A model generated the notes under the pieces. It had not been told where the DNA came from. It saw nothing but the letters and a program-made list of their open reading frames with translations, and ran no database searches. A program made the translations under genes and the position numbers. This document shows, in pieces, positions 43,549 to 64,000 of a stretch of DNA of 64,000 bases (its first letter is position 1; the number at the start of each line of letters is the position of its first letter). Location of the stretch: assembly GCF_000175935.2 (NCBI RefSeq), contig NC_014842.1:52878-116877 (forward strand), in the 5' to 3' direction. This DNA comes from Pantoea sp. At-9b (GTDB lineage Bacteria; Pseudomonadota; Gammaproteobacteria; Enterobacterales; Enterobacteriaceae).

Positions 43549-43752
43549 GGCGTCCACTTTCATAATAAACCTATCGTCTGCCTAATAACGGTAGTCTGCT
43601 TTCATAAACGCAATACATAAAGCGGTTACATTCATAATAAAAACACCGTTCATGCTCTCTGCACAGGTAAAGTTTATGAAAGAACCCTACTCATCAGAGT
43701 GACACTTATGAAAGTAGCCGCCAAGCAAGTCATTTTATGAAAGTAACCGCTT
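43549..43752. repeat. RepFIB-like iterons downstream of the initiator gene, mixed orientation
   Basis: Six degenerate copies of a TTTATGAAAGTAACCGCC-type iteron. Three are inverted (43549-43565, 43589-43608, 43621-43637) and three direct (43671-43690, 43704-43722, 43733-43752). The last touches the stop of the initiator gene. In RepFIB replicons such flanking iterons bind RepA and set copy number and incompatibility. Confidence 0.8.
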
Positions 43753-44644
43753 AGTCGGCGTTAGAGAACGCTGAACGTTGTAGTTTTGGTGACCTACTAT
43801 TGATAACAAACATGATTTCACGCCCTTTCTTGTACTCGTTAAAGTCCAGATAACCAATTCTTACTAAATCCGCCAAGGCCCGGCGGATTATGACGTTTTG
43901 ATCTTTTATCTGCGATTCAAGAGCCAAACGCTCGCGAAACCTTCTCATCGAGATGTAGAGTGGGCCGGCAGGCATGCTCTCAAGATAAACGTAAAGGGAC
44001 TGAGCAGCCTCTTTCCGTGACAGTTCAGACAGTGCTTTTAACCCAAGTAATACCTTATGATCATACCGATACAACTCCCAAAGACTGCTGTCGCCTACGA
44101 TCTCTACCTGGTCTGTTTCATAATTAAGAACAGCTCTCTGAACGAGGTGGGTAACGAGAGACTTTTTTGCATTTTTTCCACGAAAAGATAGGGTTACGCT
44201 GGATAAGTTAAAAAGTGAATCGTGTAAACGTGCCCTGGCTCGTCCGTTGATATCAGTGGGTTTCAGGCCACACATGCGAGCAAATTCAGAGAAAGGTAAA
44301 GTGATCTTTTCAGTGCTGTAGCCATATTTTGAAAAAGCAGAAATTATGCCGACCCAAGTTTTGAAGTCAGTCGACATGCTGAGCTTAGCGCCTTGAATCT
44401 TGATGTCTGTGTACCCTTCTTGTCTTGCTACTTCTAAGCTGCATAGTTCTTCCGAGGCATCAATCAAAAAGTCGCGTTTACCTTTTTCCTTTGGTGCTAC
44501 CGGAGTGAATACGCTCAAACGCAGGAGAGCTACAGGCTGAACTGACTTATTACTTGTAGGTACCAGTTCATAACTTGTGTTTGATTCTTTTTTTACAATA
44601 GAAAAAGGACTGTCTATGTGTATGTTTTCCTGTTCTTTTTCCAT
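43751..44644 (-). CDS. repA: RepFIB-like replication initiator
   Basis: 297 residues. Blocks VQPVALLRLSVF, DASEELCSLEVARQEGY and DFKTWVGIISAFSKY correspond to those of RepFIB RepA, as does the two-winged-helix Rep_3-type layout with SLYVYLESMPAGPLYISMRRFRERL. It is shorter at the C-terminus than F RepFIB RepA (325). Five direct iterons lie just upstream on the promoter side and six downstream, the RepFIB arrangement. Low GC. This is a second replicon distinct from the one at 40848. Confidence 0.9.
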   Translation of the reverse strand: MEKEQENIHIDSPFSIVKKESNTSYELVPTSNKSVQPVALLRLSVFTPVAPKEKGKRDFLIDASEELCSLEVARQEGYTDIKIQGAKLSMSTDFKTWVGIISAFSKYGYSTEKITLPFSEFARMCGLKPTDINGRARARLHDSLFNLSSVTLSFRGKNAKKSLVTHLVQRAVLNYETDQVEIVGDSSLWELYRYDHKVLLGLKALSELSRKEAAQSLYVYLESMPAGPLYISMRRFRERLALESQIKDQNVIIRRALADLVRIGYLDFNEYKKGREIMFVINSRSPKLQRSAFSNAD

Positions 44645-44677
44645 TTATCCTTACCTAAAATGAATTCGACATGCGGT

Positions 44678-44781
44678 TTTATGAAAGTGACCACCTAATG
44701 TTTATGAAAGTAACCGCCTTGCTTATGAATGTAAACGCCTTTTTTATGAAAGTAACCGCTTTTTTTATGAAAGTGACCGCC
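44678..44781 (+). repeat. Five direct iterons upstream of the RepFIB-like initiator
   Basis: Copies of TTTATGAAAGTAACCGCC-type 18-mers start at 44678, 44701, 44722, 44743 and 44764; the last four are spaced exactly 21 bases (two helical turns). They occupy the initiator promoter region, so they serve both origin binding and autoregulation. Confidence 0.9.
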
Positions 44782-44900
44782 AATATCTGAGGTTTAATCA
44801 ATTAAAACAATATCTTAGAAACTCGGTGATCTTATTTGATCTTTAAGTGATCTATATATGAACTAAAAGAATTGATCTATTCAGTGGATATGTGAATAAG
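44782..44900. other. AT-rich segment with GATC cluster: probable DNA-unwinding part of the RepFIB-type origin
   Basis: Directly next to the iterons lies an AT-rich stretch with four GATC sites (44828, 44838, 44849, 44874) in about 50 bases. Dam sites beside iterons are typical of origins regulated by SeqA/Dam. No gene. Confidence 0.6.
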
Positions 44901-48215: not shown

Positions 48216-48364
48216 AGGAGGCTGAACGTGGAAAATAAGTAAGCGTCTTATTTAGACCGTCTGTGCAGTTGGCTCCGATTCCTGGAGAATAGTGTCCACA
48301 TTCTTTCAATTGTCATTGTCGAAGCTGACTTGCATGAGATTCATATCAGACTCCTCATACTTAA

Positions 48365-48736
48365 TTAATCATCATCTTTTTCCAGATCGTATCTGATCCT
48401 TGCGGCATCAAGTTCAGGGAAATTTATCTCGGCCCAGCGATCAAGAGCTTTAAGTGTGCTGACGAGTGAGTCTGCCACTCCTGTCAGACTGTATTCTACG
48501 CAGGCAGGTTTTTCTTCGTGGTCAAATCTGGACACCAGGCCATGTCGTTCAAGTTGCCGCAGAGTCTGGGTAAGAACCTTTTGTGAAATTCCCTCGATTT
48601 TTCTCATCAGTTCGCCATTGCGCATGGGATCTTCAGCGAGAGCAGGAAGGATAAGCATTACCCATTTTCCTGATATAAGCGCAAGGGCATCACGTGCTGA
48701 ACATTTAGCAGAGTAAACGCTTCCTGGGTATGGCAT
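48365..48736 (-). CDS. HxlR-type transcriptional regulator (passenger)
   Basis: 123 residues with an HxlR/MarR-like winged helix: ALALISGKWVMLILPAL, then GISQKVLTQTLRQLERHGLVSR, the recognition helix. One Cys near the N-terminus (KCSARD) is common in redox-sensing HxlR members. It is divergent from the quinone reductase next door, separated by 84 bases, the usual regulator-target layout. Confidence 0.85.
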   Translation of the reverse strand: MPYPGSVYSAKCSARDALALISGKWVMLILPALAEDPMRNGELMRKIEGISQKVLTQTLRQLERHGLVSRFDHEEKPACVEYSLTGVADSLVSTLKALDRWAEINFPELDAARIRYDLEKDDD

Positions 48737-48819
48737 GAGTAGTTACCTCAAAGTGCGTAATTGATTGCATAACCAAAAGAAAACACTATGACAGTTAAAA
48801 GTCACCAGGGAGGTCCAAT
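48737..48819. promoter_or_regulatory. Divergent promoter region of hxlR-type regulator and quinone reductase
   Basis: An 83-bp AT-rich spacer between two divergent starts, holding both promoters and presumably the regulator operator. GGAGG at 48809-48813 is the ribosome-binding site of the reductase gene. Confidence 0.5.
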
Positions 48820-49599
48820 ATGAATGTACTGATTATCACCGCTCACCCTGAGGCGGATTCGTTTAACTCATATCTGGCTGCCAAAGCCGCACGAGTATTT
48901 GAAAAGCAAGGCTCAGTGGTTAACTCAGTCAATTTATACAGTGAAAACTTCGAACCTGTTGAGGGTAAAATCTTTTACCCGGACAGACAGGATTCAGTGA
49001 GGTTTGATGCCCTGAGGGAACAGCGCCACCACTGGGAAAAGAAAATTCTGCCCGATGATGTTTCGAGACACATTCAGTTATTGATCAACTCTGACCTGTT
49101 GCTTCTGCATTTTCCTTTCTGGTGGTTTGGCATGCCCGCCATCCTGAAAGGATGGATGGATCGGGTGTTTGTTTATGGTGGGATCTATGACAGCAGGCAA
49201 CGACATGAGAATGGCGTGATGAAAGGTAAGCGTGCGTTACTCTCCGTTACTGCCGGTGCGCCTGAAAATGCCTGTGGCTATAATGGACGTCATGGCGACA
49301 TGCGATTGATGTTATGGTCACCCATACATGCGCTTCATTATATAGGTTACAGCATGCTGGAACCTTATCTTATACATGGGGTGCGTGGCGGCCTCGATGG
49401 AATAGCAAAAAAAGAGCAGCAGAAGTTACTTGATGAAAAAGTGGAAGACTTTGAAAACAGACTAACCAATATACATGAATGGCCCATCATCCCCTTCAAT
49501 AGAGAAGATGATTTCAACGAAGACAAAACATTGAAGCCTGAAGCTCCGGAATACAGTCCGTTTGTGAGACATGATCCAGATGGCTGGAAAAAATCTTAA
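48820..49599 (+). CDS. Flavodoxin-fold NAD(P)H:quinone oxidoreductase (passenger)
   Basis: 259 residues. The N-terminal MNVLIITAHPEADSFN strand-loop binds FMN/FAD in this family, followed by LLLHFPFWWFGMPAILKGWMDRVF and VTAGAP near 145, the PF02525 signature. It should reduce quinones or related electrophiles by two electrons, protecting against oxidative or plant-phenolic stress. Probably controlled by the adjacent HxlR regulator. Codon use and GC are lower than in the plasmid backbone. Confidence 0.85.
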   Translation: MNVLIITAHPEADSFNSYLAAKAARVFEKQGSVVNSVNLYSENFEPVEGKIFYPDRQDSVRFDALREQRHHWEKKILPDDVSRHIQLLINSDLLLLHFPFWWFGMPAILKGWMDRVFVYGGIYDSRQRHENGVMKGKRALLSVTAGAPENACGYNGRHGDMRLMLWSPIHALHYIGYSMLEPYLIHGVRGGLDGIAKKEQQKLLDEKVEDFENRLTNIHEWPIIPFNREDDFNEDKTLKPEAPEYSPFVRHDPDGWKKS

Positions 49600-49692
49600 T
49601 TTCAGGCTCATGCAGGCTTCAATGACTTTCAAACAGAGTTAATATGCAAGTCTCATAAAAACCGTGTCGACAACCAAACAGCATGACTATGC

Positions 49693-50598
49693 TTAATTCC
49701 GTGTTGGAGTTGATGCTGGACTGAGAAGGCTTTGATACATGAACTCCATAGCCGAATTTTGTACATGTAACAGATAATCTTTGGCTTCTTTTACATGACA
49801 GCGTTTGTCCAGCATTGCTTCAGATGAAACCTCCTGGCCACGAGTTACAGGGGGGCAGGGTATAAACACAGTGTCGGCGTCGCAGGTCGAAAGTAATTGC
49901 CTGTCAACCTGATACCTCTCCAGTTTACTTCTAAGCTCAGTGGTAACACGGGCTGGCCAGCAGTCAGTAATGATCACGTCAGCACTTTCTATGACATATT
50001 TATCATGAGTAGTATGGAAGTTTTTAATTCTGCCACCATGAGCAATCAGTAACTCTGGGGGCGCTATCTGAGTAACCGTTATAGGCAATACAGATGCAGC
50101 TTCGATCCATGAGCGTAATATGTTTGCATCAGGCCCGAGAACGACAATGTGGATATTGTTCCACCCTCCCTTTAAACGTCTTATGTATGTCAAATCTCCC
50201 AGAATCTCACAGGGATGATTACTGTGAGTTCGCAGGTTTATGACTGACATTTTGGTTGCTGCAGAAAATTGTTCAAGCTTATCAAGAGAAGGTGTCCGTA
50301 TGGCAATAATGTCAAACCAGTTTTCAAGGAAGGACGCCAGGTCCTCCACAGACTCACTACCTTCAAGTCTGGCATTCAGGTGGGTGACATTTGCACCCAT
50401 GGCGGCACCTCCAAGACTAATTGCTGCCGGATTGCGCCAGCCCGGCAACTCCTCAATTAATCCCACTCTTGCATGGCAAAGCGTTTCAGGCATTTGTCGA
50501 CTCTGCCAGCAAGAAGACAGTTCGATAGCTCTTATGGATACTTTTTCTATGGTATCTGGATCCATCGTATCGATCCTTATCAGACTGGCTGGATTCAT
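49693..50598 (-). CDS. Carbamoyltransferase-like protein with divergent phosphate-binding motif (passenger)
   Basis: 301 residues from the ATG at 50598, preferred over 50628 because AAGGACAAGAG lies just upstream on the minus strand. The late motifs of ornithine/aspartate transcarbamylases are present: NHPCE (127-131), LGP (154), TDCW (211) and CPPVTRGQEV (248-257). The carbamoyl-phosphate STRTR motif is replaced by LPGWRNP (51-57). Catalysis of the usual reaction is therefore doubtful. It could be a specialised transcarbamylase or a substrate-binding relative. Lower GC than neighbours. A TATAAT-like -10 lies upstream. Confidence 0.7.
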   Translation of the reverse strand: MNPASLIRIDTMDPDTIEKVSIRAIELSSCWQSRQMPETLCHARVGLIEELPGWRNPAAISLGGAAMGANVTHLNARLEGSESVEDLASFLENWFDIIAIRTPSLDKLEQFSAATKMSVINLRTHSNHPCEILGDLTYIRRLKGGWNNIHIVVLGPDANILRSWIEAASVLPITVTQIAPPELLIAHGGRIKNFHTTHDKYVIESADVIITDCWPARVTTELRSKLERYQVDRQLLSTCDADTVFIPCPPVTRGQEVSSEAMLDKRCHVKEAKDYLLHVQNSAMEFMYQSLLSPASTPTRN

Positions 50599-50655
50599 CT
50601 CTTGTCCTTTTCTGTTAAGAGCAAACATTATATATCTTAACCGCGAGCCGTTTTC

Positions 50656-52227
50656 CTAGTCACAGGTCACTCCGGTATTCCACGGCAGCAGATCGCGCAG
50701 CTGGTTCACAGGCCATTCCTGGATATTGCCAAGGACATACCGTAGCCACGTCTCCGGGTCCATACCGTTAAGCCGGCAGGTTCCGATAAGGGAGTACAAC
50801 ACTGCGGCCCGCTCACCGCCGCTGTCTGAACCGGCGAACAGCCAGTTTTTCCGGCCCAGGGCAACACCGCGCAGCGCGTTCTCCGCGATGTTATTGTCTA
50901 TCTCTGCCCAGCCGTTGCTGCAGTACAGGTTCAGCGCGTCCCACTGTTTCAGCAGGTACGCGAACGCCTTCGCCGTATCCGAGTGGCGTGACAGGACCTT
51001 CATCTGCGACTGTATCCAGTCGTACAGCGACTGCATCAGCGCGATGGTTCTGGTTTTTCTCACCGCCAGCCGTTCGTCTGCCGGACTGCCGCGTATCTCC
51101 GCCTCGATGGCGTACAGCTCACCGATGCGTTTTAGCGCTTCGGTGGTGATATCCGTTGGTGTACGGACGTGCACGTCGTGGATTTTTCGCCGGGCGTGCG
51201 CCATGCAGGCCGCCTCAGTGATGCGTCCGTCCTCGTACAGCGCATTATAGCCACCGTACGCATCCGCCTGCAGGATACCGCTGTACCCGGCAAGGTGCTG
51301 CTGCGGATGCACGCCCTTACGGTCCGGCGAGTATGCGAACCAGACTGCAGGCGGAAGCTGTGAACCCGCGTTACGGTCATCCCGCACGTACACCCACAGC
51401 CGCGCAGTGCGCGTTTTGCCGCTGCCCGGCTCCTGAACCGGTACCGGGATATCGTCGGTGTGCACCTTGCCCGGCATCAGCACGTACTGCCGCAGCAGGT
51501 CATACAGCGGCTCCAGCAGTTCGCTCACCGCACCCGACCAGCGCCCCAGCGTGGCCCGGCTCAGCTCCACGCCCTGACGGCGGTATATCTCTGACTGGCG
51601 GTAGTGAGGCATATGCTCTGCGAACTTCGCCGTGACGATGCGCGCCAGCAGGCCGGAGCCCGCATAGCTGCGTTCGATGGGTTTTGACGGCATCGGGGAC
51701 TGAATGATGTGGTCACACTTGCAGCAGGCCAGCTTCGGCCGCTGCGTTTCGATAACCCTGAAGGCACTGCTGATGAGCTCCAGCTGCTCCGACACGTCGC
51801 AGCCCAGCGGGTTGAGGCTGCCGCCGCACGCCGGACAGACAGTTTCGGCTGGCGGCAAAATACGGGTTTCGCGGGGAAGCGTGGCCGGCAGCGGCTTACG
51901 GGCGGACGACTGGCGCAGCGCCTGCGGGAGTACCGGGTCATGCTGCTCACCCAGAACTTCCGCCATCTCTTCCTGCAGAGCGCTGATGCGCTCTTCAGCT
52001 TCGCGCACCTGCCGTGCCGTTTTCTCCCGCAGCTTTTCGGAGCTTTTGCCGAACTGCATGCGCTGCAGCTTAGCAACCAGCGCCTTCAGCCGGTTGATTT
52101 CGCTGGCGTACGCTGCCACCCGCTGTGAGAGCAGGCGGTTGTACTCCGCCATCTGGCGGATGGTGTGCTGCTGCGTGTCCAGCAGCGCCCGGAGGCGGGC
52201 ATTTTCATCGGAGAGTGAGCGTTCCAT
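50656..52227 (-). CDS. tnpC: IS66-family transposase TnpC, copy 1
   Basis: 523 residues with an N-terminal coiled coil (about 1-100), a CxxC zinc-finger-like pair (CPACGG and CCKCDH), and the IS66 DDE domain: HTDDIPVPV near 251 and HTLE-like [24 protein letters not shown] near 440-463, with the acidic Glu in [10 protein letters not shown]. Related to the copy at 61286 (mostly identical). Intact frame. Confidence 0.95.
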
Positions 52228-52246
52228 GCAGCCACATTACTCCGGT

Positions 52247-52594
52247 TCAGATGCGCAGACCAGGGCGTTCCGTCCGCTGCGGATGTTTCCAGTTAATGCC
52301 CTCCAGCAACATGCCCAGCTGCGCCGGCGTCAGATGGACTTTACCGTCGCGGGTTACCGGCCACACGAAGCGCCCGCGTTCCAGCCGTTTGGTGAACAGG
52401 CACAGTCCATCCCGGTCAGCCCACAGCACCTTTATCATGTCGCCCCGTCGCCCGCGAAAGATAAACAGGTGCCCGCTGAACGGGTCAGTACGCAGCGTGT
52501 TCTGCACTTTCGCTGCCAGCCCGTTAAAGCTGCAGCGCATATCCGTCACACCGGCGACCAGCCAGATGCGCGAGCCAGCCGGAAAGTTAATCAC
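52247..52594 (-). CDS. tnpB: IS66 accessory protein TnpB, copy 1
   Basis: 115 residues; IWLVAGVTDMRCSFNGLAAKVQ and HLFIFRGRRGDMIKVLWADRDGL are IS66 Orf2 hallmarks. It overlaps tnpA by four bases. Required for transposition in this family; function unclear. Confidence 0.95.
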   Translation of the reverse strand: MINFPAGSRIWLVAGVTDMRCSFNGLAAKVQNTLRTDPFSGHLFIFRGRRGDMIKVLWADRDGLCLFTKRLERGRFVWPVTRDGKVHLTPAQLGMLLEGINWKHPQRTERPGLRI

Positions 52595-53223
52595 GCCTCA
52601 CCCTCCCTGAGTTCGCTGACCAGTACGTGCAGCAGCTCCGGCGTCAGTGGCCCGGTCAGGCTCAGGCTGCCGCCCGACAGCGTCAGCTTGCAACTTATGA
52701 TCGGGGGAGAGTCTGATGATACTGCCCCGTTGTGCCTGGGTGGCGAAAGAGGCTCCACGGTAACCGGGATGAGAGCGGCCCTGCTGGCAGGATCCAGCAG
52801 TCCCTGACGATGCAGATTACGCCAGTTGAAGAGCAGGTTATCGTTGATGCCATGCTCACGTGCAATTTGTGCCACACAGGCGCCCGGCTGCAGGGTTAAA
52901 TCTGCCAGGCGGATTTTGAACTCCAGAGGCCAGTCCGGACGGCGTTTTTTGACAGGCAGGTTTGTTTCAAGGTTGAAGGCGTAAAGCTCCTCCTCCAGGC
53001 GCTCAGGCGTGTATTCCTCCGGCAGCGGCCAGTTAATACCCGTGCGGCGAAAACGCTTGAACATTTTATGCGTAGCGGAAGTGCTGACGTTAAGTTGCTC
53101 TGCGATTTCACGATAAGTCAGGGCGTCGTTAAACCGCAGGCTTAGTGCAGTGAAAATCCAGGGTCTTCTGGTGTAAGGCGTGTTTCTGTCCACGGTAGTG
53201 TCCATGTTCGCGAAAGTGTCCAT
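52591..53223 (-). CDS. tnpA: IS66 TnpA-like protein with extra N-terminal HTH, copy 1
   Basis: 210 residues, longer than the usual 130-140 of IS66 OrfA. An N-terminal HTH segment (YREIAEQLNVSTSATHKMFKRFRR) precedes the normal TnpA HTH (KIRLADLTLQPGACVAQIAREHGINDNLLFNWR). Two in-frame starts (53223 and 53205) lie in direct repeats ATGGACACT. The right inverted repeat lies just upstream. Confidence 0.85.
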   Translation of the reverse strand: MDTFANMDTTVDRNTPYTRRPWIFTALSLRFNDALTYREIAEQLNVSTSATHKMFKRFRRTGINWPLPEEYTPERLEEELYAFNLETNLPVKKRRPDWPLEFKIRLADLTLQPGACVAQIAREHGINDNLLFNWRNLHRQGLLDPASRAALIPVTVEPLSPPRHNGAVSSDSPPIISCKLTLSGGSLSLTGPLTPELLHVLVSELREGEA

Positions 53224-53873
53224 GGTAGGAAACGCGGAAAAAAATAAAAGACGGTCTGGATAAGACGCTTACGAAAATAACAACGCTGCCGTTGAACATC
53301 TTGCCTGGTGCGCGCTGGTTGCGCTGCACCTGGCGCGACGCGACGGCCAGGCGGCCTCACCCGCGCAGGAAAATCTCTTTCTCACCCGCTGGCTGGCCAG
53401 CGCCGAAAAACAGCGGCGTTTCCGGAAGGAGCTGGCGAACGATATCCGCTGGCTGCTGAAGGAGGGTCGTGAAAAGGGCGTGCGGGCCGACCTGCCCGGT
53501 AAGCTGGATTACCTGTGGCGGGCCGGCAGCAGCGACCTGCTGGCGCAGAACGACCTGTTCCGGCTGCAGCACGCGCTGAACACCCTGAAACTCGCCGGCT
53601 GGATTTACATGGTGCTGAGCGAAAGCGAGTGGAGCGGTCGCCGGGCGCTGAAGCTGAATCCGTCCGTTACCGGCCTGTATCTGAATAAAAATGCGCTCGA
53701 TGTGGGGTTTAATGAGCACGGCGGGCAGCGCTGTCCCCTGCCCGCCCGCATCACCGGGAACACGGCCGGACTGGACAGGCTGCTGCAGCGCTCCGGGTGG
53801 CGGCGTGAACCGACGGGCAGTGACCCGCTGCTCCATCATCTTCTTGCCGCGATGGACTGACGGTAAGGCGTGA

Positions 53874-61142: not shown

Positions 61143-61285
61143 CCACTTATCACATCACACACTCAGCAGACCTCCGGTCTGATACGCTGAGACCTTCTGA
61201 GGAGAGGTAAATGAGAAAAATAGTTCTGCTGTTACTGGCGTTAAGCTGCACAGCAGTAAGCGTCGCATTTAGACCGTATTGACGT

Positions 61286-62857
61286 TCAAGCAGAAGTAAG
61301 GTCTACCTTCCATGGCAGCAGATCGCGGACCCGGTTCACCGGCCAGTCCTGGATATGACCGATGACGTAACGCAGCCACGCCTCGGGTTCAACGCCGTTA
61401 AGCCGGCAGGTGCCGATCAGCGAGTACAGAACAGCCGCGCTTTCCCCGCCCGCGTCTGAACCGGCGAACAGCCAGTTTTTCCGGCCCAGGGCTACACCAC
61501 GCAGCGCGTTCTCCGCGATGTTGTTGTCTATCTCTGCCCAGCCGTTGCTGCAGTACAGGTTCAGCGCGTCCCACTGCTTCAGCAGGTACGCGAACGCCTT
61601 CGCCGTATCCGAGTGGCGCGACAGCACTATCATCTGCCCCTGTATCCAGTCATACAGCGATAGCATAAGCGGGACGGTCCGCACTTTCCGGACCGCCAGT
61701 CGTTTCTCTGCCGGACTGCCGCGTATATCTGCCTCGATGGCATACAGCTCACCGATTCGCTTCAGCGCTTCTGTTGTGATGTCGGTCGGGGTTCGGACGT
61801 GGACGTCGTGGATTTTCCGACGGGCGTGCGCCATGCAGGCCGCTTCCGTGATGCGCCCGTCTTCGTACAGGGCATTATAGCCACCGTAAGCATCCGCCTG
61901 CAGGATACCGCTGTACCCGGCAAGGTGTTGCTGCGGATGCATTCCCTTACGGTCCGGTGAGTACGCGAACCAGACCGCAGGCGGAAGCTGTGAACCCGCG
62001 TTGCGGTCATCCCGCACGTACACCCACAGCCGGGCCGTCCGGGTTTTGCCGCTGCCCGGTTCCTGCACCGGCACCGGGATATCGTCAGTATGCACCTTGC
62101 CCGGCATCAGCACGTACTGACGCAGCAGCTCATACAGTGGCTCCAGCAGTTCGCTGACCGCGCCGGACCAGCGCCCCAGCGTGGCACGACTCAGCTCCAC
62201 GCCCTGACGACGGTAGATTTCTGACTGCCGGTAGTGTGGTGTGTGCTCTGCGAACTTCGCGGTGACGATTCGGGCCAGCAGACCGGAACCGGCGTAGCTG
62301 CGCTCTATGGGATTTGAAGGCGTGGGGGCCTGAACGATGTGGTCACAGCTGCGGCAGGCCAGTTTGGGCCGCTGCGTTTCGATAACCTTAAAGGCGCTGT
62401 TGATGAGCTCCAGTTGCTCTGACATGTCGCAGCCCAACGCGCTGAGTTCTCCGCCGCATGCCGGGCAGGTGATTTCTGCCGGCAACAGCGTGCGGGTTTC
62501 GCGCGGGAGTGTGATGGGGAGCGGTTTACGGGCGGAAGACTGGCGCAGCGGCTGTGGCAGTACCGGGTCATTCTGCTCGCCCAGCACCTCGGCCATCTCC
62601 TCCTGCAGGGCATCGATGCGCTCCTCAGCCTCGCGCACCTGGCGCTGCGTTTTCTCACGCAGCTTTTCGGAGCTTTTGCCGAACTGCATGCGCTGCAGCT
62701 TAGCGACCAGCGCCTTCAGCCGGCTGATTTCGCTGGCGTACGCCGCCACCCGCTGCGAGAGCAGACGGTTATACTCCGCCATTTTGCGGATGGTGGTTTG
62801 CTGCTCCTGCAGCAGCGCCCTGATCCGGGCATTTTCATCAGGGTGTGAGATGTCCAT
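61286..62857 (-). CDS. tnpC: IS66-family transposase TnpC, copy 2
   Basis: 523 residues, colinear with copy 1, with a coiled coil at the N-terminus, the zinc-finger-like CPACGG and CRSCDH pairs, HTDDIPVPV near 251 and [14 protein letters not shown] near 450. Intact. Differences from copy 1 are scattered, so the two are related but not recent duplicates of each other. Confidence 0.95.
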
Positions 62858-62876
62858 GACCCCACTTTACAGCAGG

Positions 62877-63224
62877 TTATATCCGCAGACCAGGGCGTTC
62901 CGTCCGCTGCGGGTGCTTCCAGTTAATGCCTTCCAGCAACATGGACAGCTGCGCCGGCGTCAGGTGGACTTTTCCGTCGCGGGTCACCGGCCAGACGAAG
63001 CGCCCGCGCTCCAGGCGTTTGGTGAACAGGCACAGGCCGTCCCGATCCGCCCACAGCACCTTTATCATGTCGCCGCGGCGACCACGGAAGATGAACAGGT
63101 GCCCGCCGAACGGGTCAGCACGAAGCGTATTCTGCACCTTTGATGCCAGACCGTTGAAGCCGTTTCTCATATCAGTGATGCCGGCAACCAGCCAGATGCG
63201 TGAGCCTGCGGGGGGAGATATCAT
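62877..63224 (-). CDS. tnpB: IS66 accessory protein TnpB, copy 2
   Basis: 115 residues, nearly identical to copy 1 (IWLVAGITDMRNGFNGLASKVQ, HLFIFRGRRGDMIKVLWADRDGL). Overlaps tnpA by four bases. Confidence 0.95.
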   Translation of the reverse strand: MISPPAGSRIWLVAGITDMRNGFNGLASKVQNTLRADPFGGHLFIFRGRRGDMIKVLWADRDGLCLFTKRLERGRFVWPVTRDGKVHLTPAQLSMLLEGINWKHPQRTERPGLRI

Positions 63225-63856
63225 CGGCTCCCTCCTTTCATTTCACGGATGAGCACCTGCAGCATTTCCGGCGTCAGTGTGCCTTTCAGCCTCACGGTAC
63301 CGGAAGGAAGAACCAGTTCGCAGCACAGTGTTTCACCGGACGTATTTTCCGGCCCGGAGGCCGGAACGGCAACGGTTCTGTCCGGTTCGGCGGACAGCAT
63401 GACAGGAAGCAGTGCCGGCTCACAGTTGTGTGGAAGCAACAGGCCTTTCCGATAAAGGCAGCGCCAGTTGAACAGCAGGTTATCGTTAATGCCGTTTTCG
63501 CGTGCCAGTTGGGCCACATTAGTGCCTGGCTGAAGTGATTTTTCGACCAGTGCGATTTTGAACGCTCGCGGGAAGTTTGGTCTGCGGATGCGCTTTCTGA
63601 CGATCGGTTTTGCGGTCATAACGGTAACCACAGGTGCTGGCGGTGCGCTGGAGAGAGGGCGGTAAAGACACTCATCCAGTTTTTGTTCCGACATGGCGGA
63701 GGGCAAAGGCCATGAAAGCCCGGCTTTCCGGAAGCGAACAAAAAGATCGCAAACGGTCGTTTTTGGAATTCCCAGACGGCGTCCGGCCTCGACCCGGGCT
63801 AAATTCTCGTCGAAGTGCAGATGCAGGGCTTCAAGTAGCCAGGTCCGGTGTTTCAT
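63221..63856 (-). CDS. tnpA: IS66 TnpA-like protein with extra N-terminal HTH, copy 2
   Basis: 211 residues. The N-terminal segment (AGRRLGIPKTTVCDLFVRFRKAGLSWPLPSAMSEQKLDECLY) resembles the IstA/IS21-type HTH region. The C-terminal part (FKIALVEKSLQPGTNVAQLARENGINDNLLFNWR) is the usual TnpA HTH. The start has no clear ribosome-binding site and lies beside a palindrome at 63862-63887. Confidence 0.85.
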   Translation of the reverse strand: MKHRTWLLEALHLHFDENLARVEAGRRLGIPKTTVCDLFVRFRKAGLSWPLPSAMSEQKLDECLYRPLSSAPPAPVVTVMTAKPIVRKRIRRPNFPRAFKIALVEKSLQPGTNVAQLARENGINDNLLFNWRCLYRKGLLLPHNCEPALLPVMLSAEPDRTVAVPASGPENTSGETLCCELVLPSGTVRLKGTLTPEMLQVLIREMKGGSR

Positions 63857-63861
63857 ACGCT

Positions 63862-63887
63862 AATGTCCATTATAAATGATGGACATT
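63862..63887. promoter_or_regulatory. Palindrome at the tnpA start of IS66 copy 2
   Basis: AATGTCCAT (63862-63870) and ATGGACATT (63879-63887), 9-bp perfect arms, within the space between the right end and tnpA. Probably an operator through which a transposase subunit limits its own expression. Confidence 0.5.
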
Positions 63888-64000
63888 ATTGTCACGGAGC
63901 CGGAGGGAAACGGACAGACGGTCTATATGAGACGCTTACGCACAGCATCACTTTCAGGCTGCGTATGGCCGTGGTGGGGCCCGGGCGGCGGACCCGCGCA

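Follow-up and report, generated by a model that had tools for sequence, protein, structure and literature searches.

Composite transposons such as Tn10 and Tn5 are built from inverted copies of an insertion sequence (IS), whose outer ends move everything between them. In the IS66 family, ISPa75-fosZ is described as a passenger-bearing element (tIS66), and its authors suppose that the passenger was entrapped between the ends of two different IS66s (PMC12888890). Here we analyze a 64,000-nucleotide stretch of Pantoea sp. At-9b (hereafter, the window; NC_014842.1 or contig C6, positions 52878-116877 of 116,877 nt, in a 6.3-Mb genome of 6 contigs, G000), which contains a 5034-bp IS66 unit at 48239-53272. 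In addition to its transposition genes, the unit carries an HxlR-type regulator gene, an NQO-type NAD(P)H oxidoreductase gene and a gene whose product resembles ornithine carbamoyltransferase (OTC). We favor, at a probability of about 0.78, a history in which a tIS66-type unit would have gained the OTC-like gene first, borrowed its cargo-side end from an IS66 of another subgroup and later undergone a crossover in tnpC.

Like ISPa75-fosZ and the Pseudomonas tIS66 elements (PMC12888890), the window element has tnpA, tnpB and a DDE gene, a passenger in the same slot downstream of the DDE gene, and ends starting with GTAAGCG. Unlike ISPa75-fosZ, a 2996-bp Pseudomonas element with one passenger, it belongs to another genus and carries other cargo in several modules. 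The tIS66 kind is already known; what is new here, beyond ISPa75-fosZ, is the cargo, a borrowed end that can be typed, a composite snapshot, a probable inner relic and the crossover in tnpC. The literature searched, with most subscription papers and ISfinder outside its scope, contained no report of the window element and none combining IS66, Pantoea and a passenger.

Structure and movement of the unit

The minus-strand open frames tnpA, tnpB and tnpC (DDE) were assigned to the IS66 family by Pfam and NCBIfam, the inverted repeats start with GTAA, and the target duplication is 8 bp long. The passengers lie within the ends and downstream of the DDE gene, which is how tIS66 is defined in PMC12888890. 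A preliminary description of this DNA had reported exact 8-bp duplications and matched ends around a 5034-bp unit, and we confirmed both: the duplication is GAAAATAA on either side, and the 24-bp ends are identical at 22/24 positions. The chance that two fixed places share exactly the same 8-mer is ~1.5e-5 (4^-8).

The insertion disrupts the first codons of a gene. The empty site, which the preliminary description had suggested looking for in relatives, does exist: the window flanks, joined without one duplication copy, align unbroken across the junction to an uninterrupted target (L042, 72% over 793 columns), and in a second locus (L036, 76% over 364) the junction is crossed by 19 nt only. 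The right flank matches 2752 of the 72,556 plasmid records, and DUF2913 is named there in 14 of the 15 matches listed.

A complete second unit is present in another genome of the genus (G045) with both ends and its own exact duplication, GAATGTGC. It lies at a different site, and its flanks have no homology to the compared window stretch, 43000-64000. Because of the ends with their 8-bp duplication, this second copy at a different site of a different genome, and the uninterrupted target, we regard the window element as a passenger-bearing IS66 unit transposon of the tIS66 type that would move as one piece, in agreement with the earlier proposal of an intact unit moving together with its cargo. 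The two insertions at different sites lend indirect support to active transposition.

We searched the 2.4-kb cargo half in 61 genomes of the genus and found some match in 23 of them but the whole stretch in two, G000 itself and G045. The OTC part is present in G036 (P. rodasii) and G019 (Ca. P. formicae), and HxlR-NQO occurs without IS ends in three places (G044, G045 and contig C3 of G000) with 79-81% nucleotide identity. The other matches are short, almost all of them in the end or inside NQO, with the exception of a 335-nt OTC stretch on contig C2. The preliminary description had named the passenger block without IS ends as the observation that would speak against unit movement; among these 61 genomes, the entire HxlR-NQO-OTC block was not found in that state, and its sole other whole occurrence, in G045, has both ends and a duplication. 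The IS-free HxlR-NQO loci fit a source of the pair rather than a refutation of unit movement. No record covering 80% of the whole element was found among the 72,556 plasmid records. The cargo half gave no E. coli genome match at megablast sensitivity and, at a distant setting, partial matches in 54 plasmid records, none above 80%.

The cargo-side end and the history of the element

Well past the 24-bp repeat, the cargo-side 71 nt agree with the tnpA-side ends of a second IS66 subgroup, with 58/67 identical positions to P. dispersa, 57/67 to IS66-B of K. michiganensis, 51/64 to the cargo-free copy in the window and 49/60 to G012. In contrast, identity is at most 30/41 to tnpC-side ends and at most 35/45 to tnpA-side ends of the element's own subgroup, its own included. 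Homology to the IS-free HxlR-NQO loci starts at 48310, directly after this end fragment, in two of the three loci (L033 and L034) and later in the third (L035). The fragment thus corresponds to the remains of a second inverted IS expected at the cargo side after a composite origin, while the full second IS is absent from the window.

A simpler history, in which the three genes entered one IS66 in a single event between tnpC and its own native end, would account for the slot that the cargo occupies, and other cargo carriers, e.g., in P. rodasii and P. deleyi, do have native ends of the tnpC-side type. We consider it quite unlikely, since the window element has a cargo-side end like the tnpA-side ends of the other subgroup rather than tnpC-side ends, a probable relic of an older end lies inside the unit, and the OTC-like gene stands at the same tnpC junction in P. 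rodasii without HxlR-NQO. An AroE-like gene is also found in the P. rodasii element (4741 bp, duplications alike at 7/8), whose end is of the tnpC-side type; in this element, tnpA carries a frameshift and tnpC contains an in-frame stop.

The relic was recognized through P. dispersa plasmid NZ_CP082343, which contains a 2091-bp remnant (L029 5995-8085) with the duplications ACAGAAAA/ATAGAAAA. The remnant end abuts a 3' remnant of OTC, and an alpha-hydroxy acid oxidase gene is also present. This end sequence is found in the window at ~49638-49674, in the interval separating OTC from NQO; when the P. dispersa end served as query, 0/200 shuffles reached the observed alignment score. We suggest that this site is probably the former cargo-side end, now decayed.

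In a K. michiganensis plasmid (L133), an IS66 of the second subgroup, 82% identical to the free copy in the window and annotated with tnpA, tnpB and tnpC, lies inverted and is followed by 72 nt and then by an FAD (flavin adenine dinucleotide) oxidoreductase unit. Only the outermost flanks of this composite repeat (ATTTAAAA), and over 4437 bp its inner unit has the same sequence as a K. variicola unit (L134) that occurs by itself, with GAATTACC. The composite appears to have moved by its tnpA-side ends and, as far as its sequence tells, shows the kind of INTERMEDIATE required by a borrowed-end history; loss of its second IS66 body would yield a cargo-side end like that of the window element. 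As in composites of the Tn10/Tn5 type, the outer ends of two inverted IS copies are used in the K. michiganensis element; unlike in those, the two IS66s come from different subgroups, and the window element keeps ~70 nt of one. Instead of stemming from a full inverted IS66, the cargo-side end could have been acquired through recombination or with an inserted miniature element, as just ~70 nt of the second IS66 are left and a composite with the window's cargo was not found in the collections searched. We judge this route unlikely in view of K. michiganensis, where a full inverted IS66 does use its outer tnpA-side end.

In the favored history of a borrowed end, an IS66 would first have acquired the OTC-like gene beside tnpC. 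A second IS66 of another subgroup would then have come to sit, inverted, beyond an HxlR-NQO pair of the genus, and its outward tnpA-side end would have become the outer end. The body of the second IS66 would subsequently have been lost, leaving the old end to decay inside the unit, and a homologous crossover in tnpC would finally have transferred the cargo half from one transposase backbone to another. It is assumed that the shared 24 bp allow TnpA, TnpB and TnpC to bring the two unlike ends together.

Several points weigh against this history. The relic is drawn from one P. dispersa remnant, whose alignment extends 6 nt into flanking sequence in a way that the model does not explain. When the ends of P. 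rodasii, P. deleyi, a Serratia element and the free copy in the window served as queries, their observed scores were reached by 1, 5, 19 and 32 of 200 shuffles, respectively; the ends of these four elements score weakly at the relic site or elsewhere, that of the free copy aligning elsewhere. Two of the 15 ends compared had been cut in the wrong orientation and were left out of the end comparison. In the sole composite seen, the two IS66s enclose no additional gene, which makes the enclosure of HxlR-NQO an inference. Movement is deduced here from sequence, and the functions of all the cargo genes are likewise putative.

The last step is addressed by the comparison of the window element with the G045 copy. 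The two differ at 40/2624 positions before a break at 50863 and at 252/2410 after it (ln likelihood ratio 100). HxlR, NQO and OTC are 98.2-99.2% identical, compared with 89.5-92.5% for tnpC, tnpB and tnpA. Differing evolutionary rates of the two halves could in principle produce such a step, in that genes can differ in rate, but we find this very improbable because the step falls within tnpC itself (4/207 versus 161/1365, Fisher p 1.1e-6) and identity is as high in the non-coding stretches of the cargo (96.8-98.6%) as in its genes. In a backbone tree (2.4 kb, 23 sequences), G045 and P. rodasii form a group (support 1.0) that joins the window element (0.994), in conflict with the cargo identity; the 2.4-kb backbone stretch may itself have recombined. 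From these comparisons, the cargo half appears to have changed its transposase backbone via a crossover in tnpC.

Passengers across the transposase group

The element matched 1638 plasmid records; 22 of the 40 listed have a match covering more than half of the query, and we inspected each of these 22, H21 as L042 and the other 21 through their annotated regions (cargo names are as annotated, for H21 by Pfam). Both ends, an exact 8-bp duplication and extra genes were present in 10/22 records, representing 8 insertions and 7 cargo sets. These are AraC and hydrolase genes (H1, 5147 bp), fhuE (H2, H3 and H4, one shared insertion, 5307 bp), an AIDA-type autotransporter with a heptosyltransferase (H12, 8652 bp), ycgZ and ariR-type genes (H17, 6003 bp), FAD oxidoreductase and GFA-family genes within a composite (H18, 7181 bp) and the same FAD unit alone (H19, 4437 bp), chemoreceptor, LysR, GNAT and amino acid permease genes (H21, 9186 bp), and an MFS transporter with an enolase-type protein (H22, 5633 bp). 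Five of the 22 records are cargo-free, with 2650-bp elements in 3 insertions: H5, H7 and H8 share one whose duplications differ at 2/8, and H6 and H10 have exact duplications. The other seven (H9, H11, H13, H14, H15, H16 and H20) lack a left end or a matching duplication; they are unresolved and were left out of the cargo carriers, and G019:C17 (L032) was not counted because it is rearranged.

Cargo carriers therefore make up 10/15 resolved records and 8/11 distinct insertions, a sample picked by similarity to a cargo carrier that gives no rate for IS66 at large. The earlier statement that passenger genes are uncommon in IS66 elements does not hold for this transposase group, and passengers also occur in 7/25 Pseudomonas IS66 entries of ISfinder according to PMC12888890.

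The cargo-free IS66 10 kb from the unit, which has a 99.9% identical copy on contig C3, differs from the window element over the 2.4-kb backbone (76.8% identical), with tnpC at 85.4% and tnpA at 45.6% in global nucleotide alignment. It had been taken as the passenger-free version of the same element, by comparison with which the cargo was placed between tnpC and the left end. The slot between tnpC and the cargo-side end stands, but this copy belongs to another subgroup by backbone identity and end comparison, and we reject it as the cargo-free parent. It is inserted 15 codons into a frame that starts like a signal peptide (window 61211-61256), also interrupting a gene start.

The IS66 end pattern is present in 10/61 genomes of the genus (0/61 for the reversed-pattern control) and in 12/392 genomes of the family, including that of the window (control 1/392). 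Cargo-free forms can multiply: for G025, 17 inward-facing end pairs 2632-2675 bp apart were listed.

Taking these forms together, we tentatively propose that this plasmid-borne IS66 group of Enterobacterales is an open cargo platform, which would gather genes by tnpC, extend outward with the end of a second, unlike IS66, shed the body of the latter and swap its cargo half by tnpC crossover, the cargo-free, native-ended, composite and borrowed-end forms being stages of one process. We place this proposal slightly short of an even chance, given that the relic depends on a single remnant. The window element presents IS66 elements as small unit transposons by which traits beyond drug resistance are spread among Enterobacterales plasmids: redox-type genes here, and siderophore receptor, autotransporter, transport and oxidoreductase genes in relatives. 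Since cargo-free, native-end, two-IS composite and borrowed-end snapshots occur naturally, real ends are available for testing how a unit transposon arises from a composite.

Some related loci deserve mention. A 10.1-kb stretch of the P. ananatis OC5a plasmid (H16; L143 2461-12602) is bounded on the left by an end of the borrowed type (51/64); its duplications differ at 2/8, and it may be a second case of end recruitment. In the Ca. P. formicae OTC-AroE element (L032 1-3549), the tnpA-side end is inverted relative to the tnpC part near the contig start, reflecting either a rearrangement or an assembly artefact. In G053, another genome of the genus, IS66 has expanded greatly: its end pattern was matched 74 times forward and 65 times in reverse, often at the ends of contigs. 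Contig C3 of G000 has two outward-facing IS66-type ends (L043 6566-6589 and 12181-12204; G000:C3:166565 and 172180) in 18 kb with no IS66 transposase match.

Cargo genes and features of the window

The gene content given in the preliminary description, an HxlR regulator, a quinone reductase and a carbamoyltransferase-like gene, was borne out by Pfam (Table 1). The OTC-like gene begins 27 nt past the tnpC stop on the same strand and is probably transcribed by read-through of the tnp operon; HxlR and NQO are arranged divergently.

Table 1 Features of the IS66 unit and of the neighboring cargo-free copy (window positions).
Feature	Position	Strand	Evidence or remark
Target duplication GAAAATAA, left copy	48231-48238		exact match to 53273-53280
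Cargo-side inverted repeat GTAAGCGTCTTATTTAGACCGTCT	48239-48262
Putative borrowed cargo-side end	48239-48309	+	24-bp inverted repeat and ~45 nt resembling the tnpA-side end of another IS66 subgroup
HxlR-type regulator, 123 aa	48365-48736	-	Pfam HxlR E 1.1e-22
HxlR/NQO divergent intergenic region	48737-48819		TTAC-N10-GTAA, possible HxlR operator (putative role)
NQO-type NAD(P)H oxidoreductase (flavoprotein), 259 aa	48820-49599	+	Pfam Flavodoxin_2 E 1e-39
Probable relic of earlier cargo-side end, now internal	49638-49674	+	alignment to P. dispersa remnant outer end
OTC-like (transcarbamoylase-fold) protein, 311 aa	49693-50628	-	Pfam OTCace_N and OTCace
tnpC, IS66 DDE transposase, 523 aa	50656-52227	-	Pfam DDE_Tnp_IS66 E 4e-101; probable crossover point near 50863
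tnpB, 115 aa	52247-52594	-	Pfam TnpB_IS66 E 5.6e-40
tnpA, 210 aa	52591-53223	-	Pfam HTH_Tnp_1 E 2e-14
tnpA-side inverted repeat GTAAGCGTCTTATCCAGACCGTCT, read on opposite strand	53249-53272	-	22/24 identical to cargo-side end
Target duplication GAAAATAA, right copy	53273-53280
Cargo-free IS66 of another subgroup, outside the unit	61256-63939	-	duplication GCACAGCA

HxlR-type regulators are known beside oxidoreductase genes, as in YodB with azoR and HypR with HypO. The window pair is like these in being divergent with a conserved spaced inverted repeat, TTAC-N10-GTAA, kept in 5/5 aligned sequences (two of them nearly identical) and a possible HxlR operator; it is unlike them in being mobile, and its inducer, operator and target are putative. 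The winged-helix regulator scores 80.1 bits in Pfam against a cut-off of 20.8, and its best NCBIfam matches are the redox regulators RrpB and RrpA, weak and below cut-off. HxlR-NQO probably regulates itself and responds to quinones or other electrophiles. The earlier label of a stress/metabolic module holds in part: this pair fits a redox response by family only, and the OTC-like protein belongs to a divergent subfamily.

In OTC, the carbamoyl-phosphate/ornithine motifs are named STRTR, HPxQ, SMG and HCLP. The OTC-like protein is like OTC in having both Pfam domains, and its best PDB match is 7x99 (E 6.8e-25); unlike OTC, it has GWRN for STRTR, HPCE for HPCQ, D(C/S)WP for the SMG loop and PCPPVxRG for HCLPxxRG, all four replaced in 6/6 aligned members. 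It also misses the NCBIfam OTC cut-offs (NF001986, 137 versus 306 bits; TIGR00658, 106.5 versus 280.85), and its assignment as a known carbamoyltransferase is not supported. We regard it as a member of what appears to be a divergent transcarbamoylase-fold subfamily with its own invariant motifs.

This subfamily occurs mostly in alphaproteobacteria. We surveyed the neighbors in 80 loci (L049-L128) kept of 128 confirmed relatives, the 77 more distant of these 80 having 39-51% identity, and found no widely shared neighbor among these 80. The commonest, in 21/80 loci and on the opposite strand, is an enolase-superfamily-like protein (named from sequence, not by family search), a hint of a catabolic pathway. 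Contig C2 carries a 56% relative next to glyoxalase-family and DUF1203 genes. On the same contig, an OTC-like gene and a 179-aa open reading frame (ORF) occur twice (L048 5940-6479/11504-12043 and 8570-9433/12108-12815), with 235 aa in the second, shorter OTC-like copy, a local duplication. A defense role was considered and rejected: PADLOC, run on five window proteins, matched only HxlR (Csa3, E ~4e-4) and none of the other four.

At window 43613-44783, ~20-nt repeats around TTTATGAAAGTAACCGC flank an ORF of 297 aa (43751-44644, minus strand) and resemble plasmid iterons.

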